A DNA stretch of 64,000 nucleotides, from assembly GCF_021347895.1 (NCBI RefSeq), contig NC_067134.1, positions 28,472,407 through 28,536,406 of the forward strand, given 5' to 3'. The notes beneath the pieces are model-generated. The model had not been told where the DNA came from and ran no database searches. It was given only the letters and a program-made list of their open reading frames with translations. Positions 3,749 to 44,437 of this stretch are shown in pieces; positions within the stretch are counted from its first letter, which is position 1; each line of letters opens with the position of its first letter. The position numbers and the translations under genes were made by a program. Origin of the DNA: Acanthochromis polyacanthus. Its lineage: Eukaryota > Chordata > Actinopteri > Pomacentridae.

Positions 3749-5372
3749 GCTAACATCTCAGCCATCTTCAGGAGGCCATCTCTAACATCTCAACCATCTT
3801 CAGGAGGTCATCTCTAACATCTCAGCCATCTTCAGGAGGCCATCTCTAACATCTCAACCATCTTCAGGAGGCCATCTCTAACATCTCAACCATCTTCAGG
3901 AGGTCATCTCTAACATCTCAACCAGCTTCAGGAGGTCATCTCTAACATCTCAACCAGCTTCAGGAGGTCATCTCTAACATCTCAACCAGCTTCAGGAGGC
4001 CATCTCTAACATCTCAGCCATCTTCAGGAGGTCATCTCTAACATCTCAACCATCTTCAGGAGGTCATCTCTAACATCTCAACCAGCTTCAGGAGGTCATC
4101 TCTAACATCTCAACCAGCTTCAGGAGGTCATCTCTAACATCTCAACCAGCTTCAGGAGGCCATCTCTAACATCTCAACCAGCTTCAGGAGGCCATCTCTA
4201 ACATCTCAGCCATCTTCAGGAGGTCATCTCTAACATCTCAACCAGCTTCAGGAGGTCATCTCTAACATCTCAACCAGCTTCAGGAGGCCATCTCTAACAT
4301 CTCAGCCATCTTCAGGAGGCCATCTCTAACATCTCAACCATCTTCAGGAGGCCATCTCTAACATCTCAACCAGCTTCAGGAGGCCATCTCTAACATCTCA
4401 ACCAGCTTCAGGAGGCCATCTCTAACATCTCAACCAGCTTCAGGAGGCCATCTCTAACATCTCAACCATCTTCAGGAGGTCATCTCTAACATCTCAGCCA
4501 TCTTCAGGAGGTCATCTCTAACATCTCAACCATCTTCAGGAGGCCATCTCTAACATCTCAACCATCTTCAGGAGGCCATCTCTAACATCTCAACCAGCTT
4601 CAGGAGGCCATCTCTAACATCTCAACCAGCTTCAGGAGGCCATCTCAACCAGCTTCAGGAGGCCATCTCTAACATCTCAACCAGCTTCAGGAGGTCATCT
4701 CTAACATCTCAACCATCTTCAGGAGGCCATCTCTAACATCTCAACCAGCTTCAGGAGGCCATCTCTAACATCTCAGCCAGCTTCAGGAGGCCATCTCTAA
4801 CATCTCAACCATCTTCAGGAGGTCATCTCTAACATCTCAACCAGCTTCAGGAGGCCATCTCTAACATCTCAACCATCTTCAGGAGGCCATCTCTAACATC
4901 TCAACCATCTTCAGGAGGCCATCTCTAACATCTCAACCATCTTCAGGAGGCCATCTCTAACATCTCAACCAGCTTCAGGAGGTCATCTCTAACATCTCAA
5001 CCATCTTCAGGAGGCCATCTCTAACATCTCAACCATCTTCAGGAGGCCATCTCTAACATCTCAACCAGCTTCAGGAGGCCATCTCTAACATCTCAACCAT
5101 CTTCAGGAGGCCATCTCTAACATCTCAACCAGCTTCAGGAGGCCATCTCTAACATCTCAACCAGCTTCAGGAGGTCATCTCTAACATCTCAACCAGCTTC
5201 AGGAGGCCATCTCTAACATCTCAACCATCTTCAGGAGGCCATCTCTAACATCTCAACCAGCTTCAGGAGGCCATCTCTAACATCTCAACCAGCTTCAGGA
5301 GGCCATCTCTAACATCTCAACCAGCTTCAGGAGGCCATCTCTAACGTCTCAACCAGCTTCAGGAGGTCTTCT
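3749..5372. repeat. 32-bp minisatellite, about 50 copies, in a midkine intron
   Basis: Tandem array with a 32-base unit of the form taacatctcaaccatcttc plus aggaggccatctc. Copies differ at a few fixed sites (cca/gcca, atctt/agctt, ggcc/ggtc), and those variants alternate in runs, which suggests unequal exchange or gene-conversion-like turnover. One shortened unit occurs near 4640. The array lies wholly inside the intron between the two midkine domain exons. Confidence 0.95.
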
Positions 5373-7067
5373 CTTGGAATGATACCTAAACAATTATCAA
5401 GTTCTATTATCAGAACAGAAGCAGGTGGATCCACAAAGAACTTTTTAAAGAAGTAATCCATCACTGCCAGAAACTGTACAGTTAAAGAGAAACATCAGAT
5501 CATTAATACTTCAGCCTTTGAATCTTTAGATGATGTCTTTTTAGACATTTTTCCTTTGTAATGGTCAACACATATTCAAACTGATAATCGTAGTTTCACC
5601 AGAAACACACCAGCTTGTATTTAAAGCTTCATTCTCAGTGTTTTCTTTCAGAACAGGGCAAACTCCCATCATTTTAAATCTCACATCAACTCTACAGTTC
5701 ACACAGAATTCCATCAGAATTTTGATCCATGAATTTGTTTCTTCCAGACTCGACTATGATTAAGTTTGACTCGTTTTTCTCCTGCAGCTAAATATTCTCA
5801 CCAATCTGGATCTCCTCATTCAAACTAGACTTGATTTCAAAGAACTCATCTGACCAGTAAACTGTAGAGCTGTCATGAACTAGTTTACACTTTGCTCAGC
5901 TAGCTGGCTTTCATGTTACAGAAGATGTTTAAACACTGAAATAGGAGACATTTTAGAGCTCTGCTGGATAAATATCTGCCTACACAATGATTAGTCCACA
6001 CTGAGAGACAGTTTAACCAGCTCTGTGAATCTACTGTGCCTGTTGTTCTGTCCTCTGGTGGTTGGTGATGGACTCTCTGTGTGAGGATATGGTTTCTTAT
6101 TGATCACAGCTGGTTGAAGACTGAGCTTCAGATCCCACCTGGTAGACATCAGGACTGATTACCTGGAGCTCCATACCTTCCCAAGAACCAGGAGGTTTCT
6201 TCCATCAAAGTATCTTTCATGTAACCATCATCAACCCTAATCAAAGGGGAACTGTCTGTTCTGTATTTAGAAGCTGGTTCTTCTCATGCTGTCTGTGGTT
6301 CTTTAAAGTACCAAAGAGTCTTAATTTTTATTTGTATTATTTGGTTTGGATTATTTTCTCGATTAATTGATTATTCATTTGGTCTTTAAAGCAACAGAAA
6401 ATAATGAGAGCCCCAAATATTAAATGTGTTCTAAAAGAAGGGGCACAGAAATGCTGTAAATTCTTCCATTTGCATTTTTTTCTTGCTAAAAATGACCCAG
6501 ACACCTCTAAAGTTCTTACATCAAAACAAAAACGGGTGCGTCCCCAAACATCCATCTGGAAAATAAATCCTTAAAGAACCACTTTTTGCTAAAGTTCTTT
6601 GGATCAACATTTAGGGTACCAAAAGGAACCAGTTTTTGGTTGTCTGCAGAACCTTTGGGGGTTCTTTGATAGAACTAAAATGATTCTTCTATGGCAGCAC
6701 CTTTATTTTTCTGAGTGAGGTTGTTTCCTCTGTGTTCTCTTTCAGTGTCAGCAGTTTATCTGATGAAGGTTTTGGATGATGAAGCCAAAGTTCTGCTCAA
6801 TGAACCGATTGTAAATGATTTGAAATCCCCATAGTGTTCTTTCCCATATTTGAGGTGTCTGAGTTTGTATTATTCGTGCTAAAGAGCGTTAGTCGTTTTA
6901 TACAGTCTGATTGTGAGGACTGACTTTCTGTCTGTAAGTTCAAATACAGTGAAGTGTTAAATATCCAGGTTTAGAAGGTTAGGATGAGGTTAGCTTTAGC
7001 CAAGCAGCGCTAATGACTGCATGAGTGTCAGTCAGTGACTCTTCGTCTGTCTGTGTGAGTGTTTTAC
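5373..7067. other. Midkine intron sequence
   Basis: Remainder of the intron between the midkine N- and C-domain exons. Around 6570-6720 there is a block rich in AGAACC/GGTTCTTT words, resembling a short non-autonomous interspersed element common in fish, but its ends were not defined. No coding exon was found. Confidence 0.5.
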
Positions 7068-14941: not shown

Positions 14942-15448
14942 AAGACCAGATACTAGACCAGACATTAAACCAGCCCAGATATTAAACCAGACCAGACGTT
15001 AAACCAGACCAGATATTAGACCAGACCAGACATTAGACCAGACCAGACATTAAACCAGCCCAGATATTAGACCAGCCCAGACATTAAACCAGCCCAGACA
15101 TTAAACCAGCCCAGACATTAAACCAGCCCAGATATTAGACCAGCCCAGATATTAGACCAGACCAGACATTAAACCAGACCAGATATTAGACCAGCCCAGA
15201 TATTAGACCAGACCAGATATTAAACCAGACCAGATATTAAACCAGACCAGATATTAAACCAGACCAGACATTGAACCAGCCCAGATATTAGACCAGCCCA
15301 GATATTAAACCAGACCAGACATTAAACCAGCCCAGATATTAGACCAGCCCAGATATTAAACCAGACCAGACATTAAACCAGCCCAGATATTAGACCAGAC
15401 CAGACATTAAACCAGACCAGATATTAGACCAGATACTAAACCAGACCT
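14942..15448. repeat. 17-bp minisatellite, about 30 copies
   Basis: Tandem array of aaccagaccagatatta with variants at four positions (a/g start, gacc/gccc, tat/cat). It is in the presumed first intron of midkine. Unit length equals that of the unrelated array at 41.2-44.4 kb, which appears coincidental. Confidence 0.95.
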
Positions 15449-24890: not shown

Positions 24891-25091
24891 ATCTTCAGCC
24901 AGTGGAGTGTAAAAAACCACCTTCATTGACCCCCGTAAATCCAAATCTCGCCCCCTGCCTGTTAACATAGATGGTGCTGACATTGAGGTGGTGTCCAGTT
25001 ATAGGTACCTGGGTGTCCACCTGGATGAAAAGCTGGACTGGTCCTTCAACACAACTGCCATCTACAAGAAGGGACAGAGTCGGCTTCACTT

Positions 25092-25879
25092 AGCTTGGAA
25101 AATCCAAACTGAATCTCCATGTAATCTCCTATCTCCATGTTAGGAGATACAGGAGAGTCGGTTTGGCATTGTGTGAATTGAATCGCGTTTCCTTCCTGGT
25201 ACAGTTTGGTACGACCAATCATAGCACAGGAGGTGGGAGTTAATGCTGCGTCATCTTCAGTGCCTGGATTACCCATAAAGATGATGCTGGATGAGGAGGA
25301 GGGGGGCCAAAGCGAATGTTTTTGTGGTCTCTTGGCGTTTTGGATGGCGTTAGTCGTTGCCTCTTTTCACTTGACGTTTCCGACGATGAGGAGGCAGTGG
25401 ATGGCTCGTTATTTTCGGCTTCTTGCCATTGTTTGTACAGAGGAAAATCCCGTTCCAAACGTGTGAGTAAATTTAAGCAACTTTTACACATACGCTCCGA
25501 CTTGGTTTGGCTCCGATTTAAAGTTATTCCTAACACCGCTAATCGTTCGGAAGGAGTCTTTTGTTGCGTAGCCTTTTCAAAAATAAGTGTTGTACTTGAG
25601 AGTACCCCATGTATTCGCAGATTTTTGTGACAAAAACGGCAGTAATGATTCACCGCGACGCTTTCTCGGCTGCATGCCATTGTTGTTTGGACTACATGGA
25701 CTTCAAGGTCGATTTGTTTGTGCGTCACATCCGTGTTACGCTGATTGGTTCTTTCTCGTTCAAGCTGCATTCGTTAGCCCCTCCTTTTTGAAATCGTCTC
25801 CTGTCATCACAATGCCAGACTGCCTTTATTTGTATTTATATTAATACATAAATAAAGTCAGTCTGGATTTTCCAGGCAA
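25092..25879 (-). mobile_element. Small DNA transposon with 10-bp TSD and subterminal hairpins
   Basis: Inserted into the LINE with a perfect GGCTTCACTT duplication (25,082-25,091 and 25,880-25,889). Terminal inverted repeats align as GCTTGGAAAATCCAAACTG and GCCTGGAAAATCCAGACTG. Just inside each end lies a near-perfect palindrome, at 25,104-25,166 and 25,815-25,866, each beginning with a CCARACTG-type word shared with the terminal repeat. It carries one open frame on the minus strand, preceded by a TATTAATATAAATA stretch. A 9-10 bp duplication is most like Mutator-type elements, but the class is not established. Confidence 0.85.
25240..25770 (-). CDS. Transposon-borne two-CxxC (ZAD-like) zinc-binding protein
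   Basis: Intact frame of 176 residues inside the nested transposon. A more likely start is Met31 (codon at 25,680-25,678), just before MACSRESVAV. Residues about 43-115 form a compact unit: YCRFC at 43-47, then a 47-residue spacer, then MCKSC at 94-98 and an amphipathic LNLLTRLERDFPLYKQW helix. This spacing resembles the ZAD zinc-binding fold, a protein-interaction and dimerisation module, though I cannot confirm membership. Residues 117-160 are low-complexity (serine-rich, then proline-rich). There is no DDE catalytic domain, so the protein would be the N-terminal, probably DNA-end or dimerisation part of a larger transposase, left in a deletion derivative. Intactness suggests recent insertion. 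Confidence 0.55.
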   Translation of the reverse strand: MQLERERTNQRNTDVTHKQIDLEVHVVQTTMACSRESVAVNHYCRFCHKNLRIHGVLSSTTLIFEKATQQKTPSERLAVLGITLNRSQTKSERMCKSCLNLLTRLERDFPLYKQWQEAENNEPSTASSSSETSSEKRQRLTPSKTPRDHKNIRFGPPPPHPASSLWVIQALKMTQH

Positions 25880-26429
25880 GGCTTCACTTCATCCGCAGGC
25901 TGCGCTCGTTCAATGTGTGCAGTGACATGCTGCACATGTTCTACACATCAGTGGTGGAGAGGCCCTGCTGTATGCTGCTGTCTGCTGGGGTGGCAACCAG
26001 ATGGACAAGGACAGGAGGCGGCTGGACAAGCTTATTAAGAGAGCTGGTTCAGTGGTCGGGAGAGGTCTGGACGATGTGGGGACAGTAGCTGAGAGATGCA
26101 TGAGGAGCAAGGTGCAGAGCATCCTGACAAATCCCACCCATCCTTTGTACAGTACTGTCTCCGGACAAAACAGCAGCCACAGCCACCGTTTGCTTTCAAT
26201 GTGCTGCAGGACGGAGCGCTTCAGGCGATCCTTCATCCCTTCAGCCATCAGAATACAGAACTCCGCATAGCTCCCTGACTTGCACATGCACACTTGCACT
26301 TATTAATTTGCACTTTATGTTTTTATGTTTTATGTTTTTACATGGGATGATGTTTTTTTATGTGTTTTTTAAGTGTTTCATTTGAGCTGCTGGATATAAC
26401 AATTTCTCTATGGGGATAAATAAAGTATC

Positions 26430-36772: not shown

Positions 36773-37739
36773 TACAGAAGGAGTCATAGTTCCACTAATC
36801 AGGAGGTCTAGAAGGAGTCATAGTACCACTAATCAGGAGGTCCAGAAGGAGTCATAGTTCCACTAATCAGGAGGTCTAGAAGGAGTCATAGTACCACTAA
36901 TCAGGAGGTCCAGAAGGAGTCATAGTTCCACTAATCAGGAGGTCTAGAAGGAGTCATAGTTCCACTAATTAGGAGGTCTAGAAGGAGTCATAGTACCACT
37001 AATTAGGAGGTCTAGAAGGAGTCATAGTACCACTAATCAGGAGGTCCAGAAGGAGTCATAGTTCCACTAATCAGGAGGTCCAGAAGGAGTCATAGTTCCA
37101 CTAATCAGGAGGTCCAGAAGGAGTCATAGTTCCACTAATCAGGAGGTCCAGAAGGAGTCATAGTACCACTAATCAGGAGGTCCAGAAGGAGTCATAGTTC
37201 CACTAATCAGGAGGTCTAGAAGGAGTCATAGTACCACTAATTAGGAGGTCTAGAAGGAGTCATAGTTCCACTAATCAGGAGGTCCAGAAGGAGTCATAGT
37301 TCCACTAATCAGGAGGTCCAGAAGGAGTCATAGTTCCACTAATCAGGAGGTCTAGAAGGAGTCATAGTACCACTAATCAGGAGGTCCAGAAGGAGTCATA
37401 GTTCCACTAATCAGGAGGTCTAGAAGGAGTCATAGTTCCACTAATCAGGAGGTCCAGAAGGAGTCATAGTTCCACTAATCAGGAGGTCCAGAAGGAGTCA
37501 TAGAACCACTAATCAGGAGGTCCAGAAGGAGTCATAGTTCCACTAATCAGGAGGTCCAGAAGGAGTCATAGAACCACTAATCAGGAGGTCCAGAAGGAGT
37601 CATAGTTCCACTAATCAGGAGGTCCAGAAGGAGTCATAGTTCCACTAATCAGGAGGTCCAGAAGGAGTCATAGTTCCACTAATCAGGAGGTCCAGAAGGA
37701 GTCATAGTTCCACTAATCAGGAGGTCCAGAAGGAGTCTT
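36773..37739. repeat. 34-bp minisatellite, about 28 copies
   Basis: Unit gaaggagtcatagttccact plus aatcaggaggtcca, with variants tag/cca, ttcc/tacc/aacc and atc/att. Located in the last dgkz intron. Confidence 0.95.
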
Positions 37740-38647
37740 AGTAGCTTAGTGACTTCCAGCACCCACTGGCTGACCTTATATTGTGTAAATAATAATGCAA
37801 TCATTACCTTTATATTTCCTGTGTTATTTAATTGACATTACCTGGCAGAAATTAGTTTTTACTTTGACAAAGAGGAATCTTTTTTGTAAATTCTTGCCAA
37901 AAAAAGCCAAATTAAATTTGAATGTTGAAAAAGAATAAAAGTGGAAAACTTCCACAGTCTGTGAGTATTTCTTCTAGACTCTACATGAAGAATTAAAGTG
38001 TTCATAACCTCAGTGGAGGACGTGAGGAGCTACACCAGAATGAAACCTTGCAGACAGAAATGTCATTAAGATGCCAGAGTGTAGAGAATTGTTGATTTGC
38101 ACATTATAAGGATAATACTAATATACCATTAGCTAAACCTGCTTATCCTTCAGAGACTAGGATGCATGTTTGGACTGTCGGTGGAGGAAACCCAAGAAGG
38201 AACCTTAAGGATCCCCCAAGGACAAAACTAGACGAGCCAACAGATTATTTAAACGGGATGAACACCAGAGTGAGCTACGGATAACGGAAAATATGGTCTG
38301 TGAGGATGGAAATGATCTCTATGTCCTGATCCTTTATCTGAAAACCTGACTCATACAGAGAGTTAGTGTCCCATAAATTAAATATTCTGGGAACATGAGA
38401 TCTGGAACAAACCAAGGTTGCCTAATTATTCTAATATTGCATTTGATTTGAAAAGAGTCAGCGTTGCAGAACAAAGTCTGGACTCTCTGGGGTCTGATCC
38501 GGGAAAACAGGAACATAATGTTTATTTTTAAACTTTCTTTTCAGTTGGAAAACATATAAATAGCAGCTAGAAAATGGGACTTTTACACACAAATCATGCC
38601 AGGAAACAAAAACTGTAACTGTGTGTTGAGTATCTGATGTTGGTTTG

Positions 38648-41214: not shown

Positions 41215-44200
41215 CAGAAGACCTGATGGAGCTGAAGACCTGATGGAGCTGAAGACCTGATGGAGCTGAAGACATGACGGAGCTGAAGACCTGAAGAAGC
41301 TAAAGAACTGAAGGAGCTGAAGACCTGATGGAGCTGAAGACCTGACGGAGCTGAAGACCTGACAGAGCTAAAGACCTGACACAGCTAAAGACATGCCGGA
41401 GCTGAAGACCTGACGGAGCTGAAGACCTGACAGAGCTAAAGACCTGACAGAGCTAAAGACCTGACAGAGCTGAAGACATGCCGGAGCTGAAGACCTGACG
41501 GAGCTGAAGACCTGACGGAGCTGAAGACCTGAAGAAGCTAAAGAACTGAAGGAGCTGAAGACCTGATGGAGCTGAAGACCTGACGGAGCTGAAGACCTGA
41601 CAGAGCTAAAGACCTGACAGAGCTAAAGACATGCCGGAGCTGAAGACCTGACGGAGCTGAAGACCTGACAGAGCTAAAGACCTGACAGAGCTAAAGGCCT
41701 GACAGAGCTAAAGACATGCCGGAGCTGAAGACCTGACGGAGCTGAAGACCTGAAGAAGCTAAAGAACTGAAGGAGCTGAAGACCTGATGGAGCTGAAGAC
41801 CTGACAGAGCTAAAGACATGCCGGAGCTGAAGACCTGACGGAGCTGAAGACCTGAAGAAGCTAAAGAACTGAAGGAGCTGAAGACCTGACAGAGCTAAAG
41901 ACCTGACAGAGCTAAAGACATGCCGGAGCTGAAGACCTGACGGAGCTGAAGACCTGACAGAGCTAAAGACCTGACAGAGCTAAAGACCTGACAGAGCTGA
42001 AGACATGCCGGAGCTGAAGACCTGACGGAGCTGAAGACCTGAAGAAGCTAAAGAACTGAAGGAGCTGAAGACCTGATGGAGCTGAAGACCTGACAGAGCT
42101 AAAGACCTGACACAGCTAAAGACATGCCGGAGCTGAAGACCTGACGGAGCTGAAGACCTGAAGAAGCTAAAGAACTGAAGGAGCTGAAGACCTGATGGAG
42201 CTGAAGACCTGACGGAGCTGAAGACCTGACAGAGCTAAAGACCTGACAGAGCTAAAGACATGCCGGAGCTGAAGACCTGACGGAGCTGAAGACCTGACAG
42301 AGCTAAAGACCTGACAGAGCTAAAGGCCTGACAGAGCTAAAGACATGCCGGAGCTGAAGACCTGACGGAGCTGAAGACCTGAAGAAGCTAAAGAACTGAA
42401 GGAGCTGAAGACCTGATGGAGCTGAAGACCTGACAGAGCTAAAGACATGCCGGAGCTGAAGACCTGACGGAGCTGAAGACCTGAAGAAGCTAAAGAACTG
42501 AAGGAGCTGAAGACCTGACAGAGCTAAAGACCTGACAGAGCTAAAGACATGCCGGAGCTGAAGACCTGACGGAGCTGAAGACCTGACAGAGCTAAAGACC
42601 TGACAGAGCTAAAGACCTGACAGAGCTGAAGACATGCCGGAGCTGAAGACCTGACGGAGCTGAAGACCTGAAGAAGCTAAAGAACTGAAGGAGCTGAAGA
42701 CCTGATGGAGCTGAAGACCTGACAGAGCTAAAGACCTGACACAGCTAAAGACATGCCGGAGCTGAAGACCTGACGGAGCTGAAGACCTGACAGAGCTAAA
42801 GACCTGACAGAGCTAAAGACCTGACAGAGCTGAAGACATGCCGGAGCTGAAGACCTGACGGAGCTGAAGACCTGACGGAGCTGAAGACCTGAAGAAGCTA
42901 AAGAACTGAAGGAGCTGAAGACCTGATGGAGCTGAAGACCTGACGGAGCTGAAGACCTGACAGAGCTAAAGACCTGACAGAGCTAAAGACATGCCGGAGC
43001 TGAAGACCTGACGGAGCTGAAGACCTGACAGAGCTAAAGACCTGACAGAGCTAAAGACCTGACAGAGCTGAAGACATGCCGGAGCTGAAGACCTGACGGA
43101 GCTGAAGACCTGACGGAGCTGAAGACCTGAAGAAGCTAAAGAACTGAAGGAGCTGAAGACCTGATGGAGCTGAAGACCTGACGGAGCTGAAGACCTGACA
43201 GAGCTAAAGACCTGACAGAGCTAAAGACATGCCGGAGCTGAAGACCTGACGGAGCTGAAGACCTGACAGAGCTAAAGACCTGACAGAGCTAAAGACCTGA
43301 CAGAGCTAAAGACATGCCGGAGCTGAAGACCTGACGGAGCTGAAGACCTGAAGAAGCTAAAGAACTGAAGGAGCTGAAGACCTGATGGAGCTGAAGACCT
43401 GACAGAGCTAAAGACATGCCGGAGCTGAAGACCTGACGGAGCTGAAGACCTGAAGAAGCTAAAGAACTGAAGGAGCTGAAGACCTGATGGAGCTGAAGAC
43501 CTGACAGAGCTAAAGACATGACGGAGCTGAAGACCTGACGGAGCTGAAGACCTGAAGAAGCTAAAGAACTGAAGGAGCTGAAGACCTGATGGAGCTGAAG
43601 ACCTGACAGAGCTAAAGACATGCCGGAGCTGAAGACCTGACGGAGCTGAAGACCTGACGGAGCTGAAGACCTGACAGAGCTAAAGACCTGACAGAGCTAA
43701 AGACCTGACAGAGCTAAAGACATGCCGTAGCTGAAGACCTGACGGAGCTGAAGACCTGAAGAAGCTAAAGAACTGAAGGAGCTGAAGACCTGATGGAGCT
43801 GAAGACCTGACAGAGCTAAAGACATGCCGGAGCTGAAGACCTGACGGAGCTGAAGACCTGAAGAAGCTAAAGAACTGAAGGAGCTGAAGACCTGATGGAG
43901 CTGAAGACCTGATGGAGCTGAAGACCTGACAGAGCTAAAGACATGACGGAGCTGAAGACCTGACGGAGCTGAAGACCTGAAGAAGCTAAAGAACTGAAGG
44001 AGCTGAAGACCTGATGGAGCTGAAGACCTGACAGAGCTAAAGACATGCCGGAGCTGAAGACCTGACGGAGCTGAAGACCTGAAGAAGCTAAAGAACTGAA
44101 GGAGCTGAAGACCTGACGGAGCTGAAGACCTGACAGAGCTAAAGACATGCCGGAGCTGAAGACCTGACGGAGCTGAAGACCTGACAGAGCTAAAGACCTG

Positions 44201-44437
44201 ACAGAGCTAAAGACATGCCGGAGCTGAAGACCTGACGGAGCTGAAGACCTGAAGAAGCTAAAGAACTGAAGGAGCTGAAGACCTGATGGAGCTGAAGACC
44301 TGACAGAGCTAAAGACATGACGGAGCTGAAGACCTGACGGAGCTGAAGACCTGACAGAGCTAAAGACCTGACAGAGCTAAAGACATGCCGGAGCTGAAGA
44401 CCTGACGGAGCTGAAGACCTGACGGAGCCGAAGACTT
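41215..44437. repeat. 17-bp minisatellite, about 190 copies, with higher-order structure
   Basis: Tandem array of agctgaagacctgacgg with variants (gaag/taaag, gacct/gacat/gaact, acgg/acag/atgg/agaa/ccgg). The variants recur in the same order over blocks of 6 to about 17 units, giving a higher-order repeat. It sits in the dgkz intron directly 5' of the ankyrin exon at 41,104. Open frames on the minus strand with a 17-residue period are by-products of three 17-base units. Confidence 0.97.

Follow-up and report, generated by a model that had tools for sequence, protein, structure and literature searches.

The window, the whole stretch of 64,000 nucleotides of Acanthochromis polyacanthus analysed here, carries at 25091-25879 a DNA transposon of 789 bp (TAGC...GGCAA, start T included) inserted into a LINE-like coding frame (Table 1). 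With the element taken out and the flanks fused at their duplicated bases, the frame runs through (...AIYKKGQSRLHFIRRLRSFNVCSDMLHMFYTSVV...), in agreement with the original prediction of a nested insertion, and the interrupted host is presumed to be a LINE. The inverted terminal repeats reported earlier match at 19 of 22 positions counted from T25091, a degree of agreement reached by one in 200,000 random pairs of 22-mers drawn from the window, and the hairpin ends that reuse the word CCARACTG fold far better than 200 dinucleotide shuffles (z of -6.5 and -6.8). A PDB search by sequence and scans for Rfam families and tRNAs returned nothing useful; viral contigs, prokaryote genomes, phages, and plasmids gave no lead, and the three stretches of viral contigs with the terminal repeat pattern are about as many as estimated by chance. 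Elsewhere, the window contains long minisatellites at 41217-44435 (17 bp, 189 units), 3750-5374 (32 bp, 51 units), 36775-37742 (34 bp, 28.5 units), and 14955-15433 (17 bp, 28 units).

Table 1. The short element and its flanks, in window coordinates
Feature	Position	Strand	Basis or remark
Interrupted host frame, left part (LINE-like; LINE label presumed)	24918..25081	+	Frame continuous after joining flanks
Left target-site duplication, GGCTTCACT, 9 bp	25082..25090		T is the next base in 30/30 copies
Whole non-autonomous element, 789 bp	25091..25879		Own-genome copies and copy ends
Helicase-side end: first 189 bp of the 10.1-kb element, upstream of the helicase frame	25091..25279	+	94.7% to B:3692-3880
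Left end, arm 1, GCTTGG	25093..25098	+	Arm comparison
Left end, arm 2, CCAAAC	25104..25109	+	Hairpin fold and arm comparison
Left end, arm 3, GTTTGG; partner of arm 2 across a palindromic loop	25161..25166	+	Hairpin fold, arm and loop tests
ORF, 176 aa; translation probably begins at residue 31 (25680), judged against P0001	25240..25770	-	From about residue 165, encoded beyond the junction
Internal deletion junction, 2-bp microhomology, about 9.3 kb missing	25278..25279		Alignment to the long element
Transposase-side end: final 603 bp of the 10.1-kb element, with 5' region and first coding exon	25278..25879	-	96.5% to B:13208-13810
ZAD-like domain, CxxC-x47-CxxC, residues 43-106	25453..25644	-	zf-AD match at E 0.001, under the gathering cut-off; CxxC spacing similar to that in Grauzone 1pzw
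Right end, arm 3, GTCTGG; partner of arm 2 across a palindromic loop	25815..25820	-	Hairpin fold, arm and loop tests
TATAAATA, possible TATA box in the right-end loop, upstream of the ORF	25833..25840	-	Putative function
Right end, arm 2, CCAGAC	25861..25866	-	Hairpin fold and arm comparison
Right end, arm 1, GCCTGG	25872..25877	-	Arm comparison
Right target-site duplication, GGCTTCACT, 9 bp	25880..25888		Comparison with genome copies
Interrupted host frame, right part (LINE-like)	25889..26000	+	Frame continuous after joining flanks

When the fish's own genome (957 Mb, 81 contigs) was searched with the element as query, 939 first-look candidates were obtained, 40 of which, the window copy among them, were scored. 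Query positions 1-788 were covered by 39 of these matches and 3-788 by the remaining one, and the other scored copies were 95-97% identical to the window copy. Thirty copies were analysed further; they are the best-scoring of the 939 candidates, so that their mean pairwise divergence of 2.7%, like their intactness, is biased toward young copies. Their least diverged part is the left end (0.5%, versus 1.4% for the exon and 1.1% for the right end), a regional comparison that, like the omega given below for these copies, may be biased by repeated counting of inherited changes and by CpG transitions (101 of 345 changes).

These copies, cut out as loci and including the window copy, fix the true ends. 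All 30 begin with T, and all 30 have a TA start and an AA end once T25091 is counted. Their target-site duplications (TSDs) are exactly 9 bp long in 26 cases and 10 bp in one (L018), the other three having one or two mismatches; G is favoured at the first TSD position (16/30) and C at the ninth (14/30). Since the start T is common to all 30 copies and the TSD is 9 bp in 26, the window element is 789 bp long and flanked by a 9-bp TSD. The bounds first proposed for it, 25092..25879 (788 bp), are therefore correct on the right and one base out on the left. A 10-base direct repeat does flank those bounds; however, its tenth base is the element's own T set by coincidence against a host T, and the 10-bp TSD proposed for the window copy was rejected.

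A search of the same genome for the Pfam family DUF6589, prompted by the occurrence of such proteins in fish, gave 13 matches, and none was found in 14 control genomes. Eight stretches of 9.9 kb were read around these matches and fell into five families: A (L047, L048, L051), B (L052, L054), C (L050), D (L049), and E (L053). They contain the full-length relatives that the original prediction had proposed to look for, namely, elements of 7.2-10.1 kb with DUF6589 and a helicase. An exon related to the window ORF, and thus ZAD-like, is present in seven of the eight stretches (best matches 38-93% identical; absent from L054), and RecQ-like helicase frames lie on the strand opposite to DUF6589 in seven of eight; L051 has no listed helicase frame, but its helicase region aligns with that of L047. 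In the long elements, DUF6589 and the ZAD-like exon thus share a strand, with the RecQ-family helicase encoded opposite them. Pfam matches to pieces of them reach E-values of 1e-17 (Helicase_C), 2e-15 (DEAD), and 2.6e-24 (DUF6589). For all five helicase pieces, the best NCBIfam model is the RecQ family, with scores below the whole-protein cut-off because the queries are pieces, and the best matches by sequence among solved structures (PDB) are the RecQ4 and WRN helicases. The DUF6589 exon has C and H residues at a spacing like that of C2H2 fingers, invariant in all four aligned sequences. Judging from order and strand, the ZAD-like exon is probably spliced to DUF6589 into one gene.

The long elements measure 8840 bp (A), 10,119 bp (B), 8455 bp (C), and 7193 bp (D). 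Perfect 9-bp TSDs flank those of families B, C, and D (one copy read each) and five of seven family-A copies; for the A length, the right boundary was shifted a single base to bring the TSD GTACCAATC into register, and the D ends were located by a scan in which a 9-bp repeat was obligatory, so that D is not independent evidence for TSD length. A scan for 9-bp repeats around family E found no convincing ends in the stretch read (L053). Six DUF6589 matches of equal score (85.4 bits; L034-L039) represent the family-A long element in several near-identical copies, and L047 and L048 are 99.8% identical over 8.7 kb, suggesting that this element moved or was duplicated recently. The remaining two of the seven family-A copies, C4 and C9, are flanked by the same bases as each other and show no matching TSD; one of the pair therefore probably arose by duplication of a larger segment or by recombination. 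Four ZAD-exon matches spaced about 8.25 kb apart, in the manner of a tandem array, were also observed (C5:18261813, 18270058, 18278325, and 18286582).

The closest long element (C10, L052, family B) has the same ends as the window element and the perfect 9-bp TSD CATCATCGC on both sides. One of its ends is 94.7% identical to positions 1-189 of the window element and the other 96.5% identical to positions 188-789, and 9.3 kb of the long element separates the two matches; the helicase frame of the long element lies just inside the helicase-side end. The window element is thus almost certainly an internally deleted derivative of a long transposon. The deletion junction is identical in 29 of the 30 short copies, so that a single founder deletion was multiplied. 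Four further copies (L055-L058) have the common junction too, three of them with about 50 bp of extra purine-rich sequence nearby. The exception, L028, was deleted separately: its own junction, with short microhomology, lies no more than about 16 bp from the common one. Deletion at this place has therefore happened at least twice and may be favoured. The ZAD exon of L052 contains an in-frame stop and a frameshift, marking this copy as a decayed relative rather than a proven source. About 0.6 kb to the left of the 10.1-kb element (L060 and L052) lie open frames whose motifs resemble those of a Tc1/mariner transposase.

The TSD length and the helicase can be compared with the published description of AcademH. 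In PMC10045372, AcademH elements are given TSDs of 9 or 10 bp and AcademX elements TSDs of 3 or 4 bp, a difference tied to the encoded helicase and nuclease, respectively. In this fish, 27 of the 30 short copies have TSDs of exactly 9 or 10 bp, as do the long elements with the perfect 9-bp TSDs listed above; neither short copies nor long elements have the 3-4 bp of AcademX. A helicase is encoded beside the presumed transposase in the long relatives, not in the window copy. Where the original prediction could name no family with confidence, the RecQ-family helicase and the 9-bp TSD match the AcademH description (PMC10045372). An AcademH-type name is accordingly held with good confidence, and the window element is very likely a non-autonomous, internally deleted derivative of such a transposon.

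It is less probable by far that the long elements form a lineage of their own, separate from AcademH and defined by a ZAD-DUF6589 transposase with a RecQ helicase, of which the short element would be the derivative. In favour of this reading, kinship of DUF6589 with the Academ transposase is putative; no mention of DUF6589 was found in the literature searched; and RecQ helicases are reported from more than one superfamily, being carried by KolobokH (PMC9587614) and said to be carried by Academ (PMC3627910), as far as the excerpts of these papers go. Against a separate lineage, a 9- or 10-bp TSD together with a helicase is the very pair given for AcademH (excerpt of PMC10045372), and the title of the AcademH report (Kojima 2020), as it appears in the reference lists of later papers, names animals and fungi. 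With a RecQ helicase also found in KolobokH, the helicase alone cannot decide the family. Kolobok TSDs are of the TTAA type, and those found here are 9 bp long and of varied sequence. Literature searches on ZAD domains with transposons, 10-bp TSDs, hairpin ends, and RecQ, covering sources other than the original AcademH report, gave no instance of the combination among the matches listed.

The protein encoded by the AcademH-type short copy has the predicted CxxC-x47-CxxC arrangement, with CxxC pairs at residues 44 and 95; a CRxC start and two CxxC pairs about 45-50 residues apart are also features of ZAD (PF07776). In a Pfam search, the ZAD reading of the original prediction received a zf-AD match (E 0.001, 19.7 bits) that stays under the curated cut-off of 28, the window protein being the only match of that profile among 22 proteins scanned together. 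Weaker zf-AD matches came from the exons of L049 (E 0.032) and L053 (E 0.017), while those of L047 and L050 gave no zf-AD match and weak others instead (HECT_2, 0.0093; Furin-like_2, 0.022). Two structure predictions were both too poor to judge the fold or a four-cysteine zinc site (mean pLDDT 53.7 for one of them); Foldseek and VIA-align listed no ZAD chain and no clear fold match, a result that does not speak against a ZAD fold. ZAD-like identity is plausible but weak by sequence. A single-sequence search gave one close relative of the window ORF (P0001, 40% identity), and a profile search gave 22 relatives at E up to 1, P0001 included, of 70-186 aa; a search with a padded query, aimed at longer proteins, had 400 candidates, none of which passed. 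Both CxxC pairs are present in five (P0001, P0003, P0007, P0009, and P0011) and the rest have one or none, many of those without both pairs being truncated or mutated.

The gene had been described as the element's only one, intact and with a disordered tail. Its frame is indeed open, but roughly the last twelve residues are encoded beyond the junction at 25278/25279, and the remainder is the first coding exon of the gene presumed to encode the transposase of a 7-10-kb element, truncated here by the deletion. An idea of our own, drawn from P0001, P0009, and the window ORF, placed a splice donor at 25272 as the end of the ORF; it was discarded, the sequence there being part of the other element end, across the deletion. 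Among the 30 short copies, 130 amino-acid and 40 silent changes were counted (omega about 1.28, each copy being compared with the majority base so that inherited changes count more than once), and 14 of the 130 amino-acid changes are stops, versus 6.4% expected without selection; purifying selection is thus not seen among them. Between the exons of the window and L050, by contrast, omega is 0.30 over 87 codons in a single comparison. The difference suggests that the exon is constrained in the long elements, where this one comparison makes it look so, and is a passenger in the short ones. The ORF of the short copy would then be a remnant left by the deletion, not a maintained gene.

A role for that remnant, compatible with the deletion origin, would make the short element a functional unit whose ZAD-like product represses the transposase or competes with it, by analogy with the short P-element products that act as repressors. 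The ORF is open over residues 31-166 in 14 of 30 copies (one of the 14 ending in a last-codon stop), a TATA-like box lies in the right end, and the exon of the window family, compared with that of the L050 family, shows purifying selection; the omega and the share of stops among the 30 copies speak against such a role, which appears quite improbable. Assignment to MuDR by the 9-bp TSD is very improbable: MuDR and related groups make TSDs of 4-10 bp (excerpts of PMC3706591 and PMC10045372), but Pfam at E up to 1 on ten pieces found DUF6589, DEAD, and Helicase_C and no MuDR domain. Hardly credible, finally, and rejected, is the stand-alone, previously unseen two-CxxC gene element with its own transposition system that the original prediction suggested: within the window alone the element appears complete, but its two halves match the two ends of the 10.1-kb transposon, with a deletion between them.

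The ends shared by the AcademH-type short and long forms have a common architecture. In all eight ends of families A-D, arm 1 begins at position 3 and is followed by a spacer of 3-6 bases, arm 2, a loop of 20-51 bases, and arm 3. Pairing of arm 2 with arm 3 is complete in every end (48/48 pairs), and four sequence versions occur (GGCTGG, GTCTGG, GTTTGG, and GTCTAG). Only 36 of 40,320 reassignments of arms among ends are as good, which by our count equals the number of swaps among ends with identical arms; the arms were picked by eye after viewing the ends, so that this test was not blind, and arm 3 of the left B end was taken from the 30-copy family, the long copy differing at its last base. 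When the arms are excluded, four of the eight loops fold beyond chance at p 0.003 or less and a fifth reaches p 0.051, whereas the loops of A_L, A_R, and D_R are not significant (p 0.20, 0.38, and 1.0); the combined p is 1e-7, or 2.6e-4 without family B. The D_R end as a whole has a z of -0.94. The loop pairs A_L/C_L, B_L/C_L, and B_R/C_R are more alike than 95% of shuffles, and thus the eight ends are not independent observations. In 24 of the 30 copies, the 13-mer around the TATA-like TATAAATA shows no change. The arms could be explained by inverted sites for protein binding or by hairpin extrusion; because loops of differing sequence fold, the evidence leans toward hairpins.

A working model can be proposed from these features. 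The ZAD-like exon and DUF6589 would be joined in one protein, the presumed transposase, supplied by long copies and acting in trans on any DNA with such ends. It may bind the repeated YTGG/CCAR arms, the ZAD-like domain being a candidate for end recognition or pairing, while the helicase may help to open or process the ends; the transposase would then excise the element and insert it across a 9-bp stagger, generating the TSD. The short form probably multiplied because it kept its ends. A more specific and distinctly tentative version holds that the ends are recognised by way of a hairpin-forming structure of three co-evolving arms, that the ZAD-like domain reads the arms, and that the RecQ helicase extrudes or resolves the hairpins; if true, it would amount to a structure-guided, helicase-coupled form of cut-and-paste transposition. 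The analysis links a numerous short repeat to long elements that may move it, suggests that DUF6589, a Pfam family without an assigned function and here preceded by a ZAD-like exon, acts as a transposase, and offers the covarying end arms as concrete candidate binding sites. With both the long and the short form, their precise ends, and their TSDs known, the role of a RecQ helicase in a cut-and-paste transposon becomes testable.

A parallel for the short form is found in P elements, whose short derivatives are likewise internally deleted and retain their ends together with an N-terminal stretch of coding sequence; they differ in belonging to another superfamily and in having no helicase. ZAD (zf-AD) proteins such as Grauzone share with the window protein the CRxC...IF...CxxC pattern and its spacing (CxxC at 3 and 52 in 1pzw, at 44 and 95 here), although the window protein has no C2H2 finger array directly after the domain and scores below the Pfam cut-off. 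In mammals, Zfp276 is called the only ZAD-domain zinc finger protein (excerpt of PMC8887482). Among transposons, Kolobok-1_CCri also has a RecQ helicase on the complementary strand, but KolobokH belongs to a different superfamily and, in the excerpt of PMC9587614, is reported from fungi only. AcademX shares the superfamily of AcademH and differs in encoding a nuclease and making the shorter TSD (excerpt of PMC10045372). AcademH itself, likened here by description only, is a helicase-encoding DNA transposon with the same TSD length, from which the window copy differs in lacking both genes save one exon. The window element belongs to a known, little-studied transposon lineage, with unusual hairpin-forming ends.
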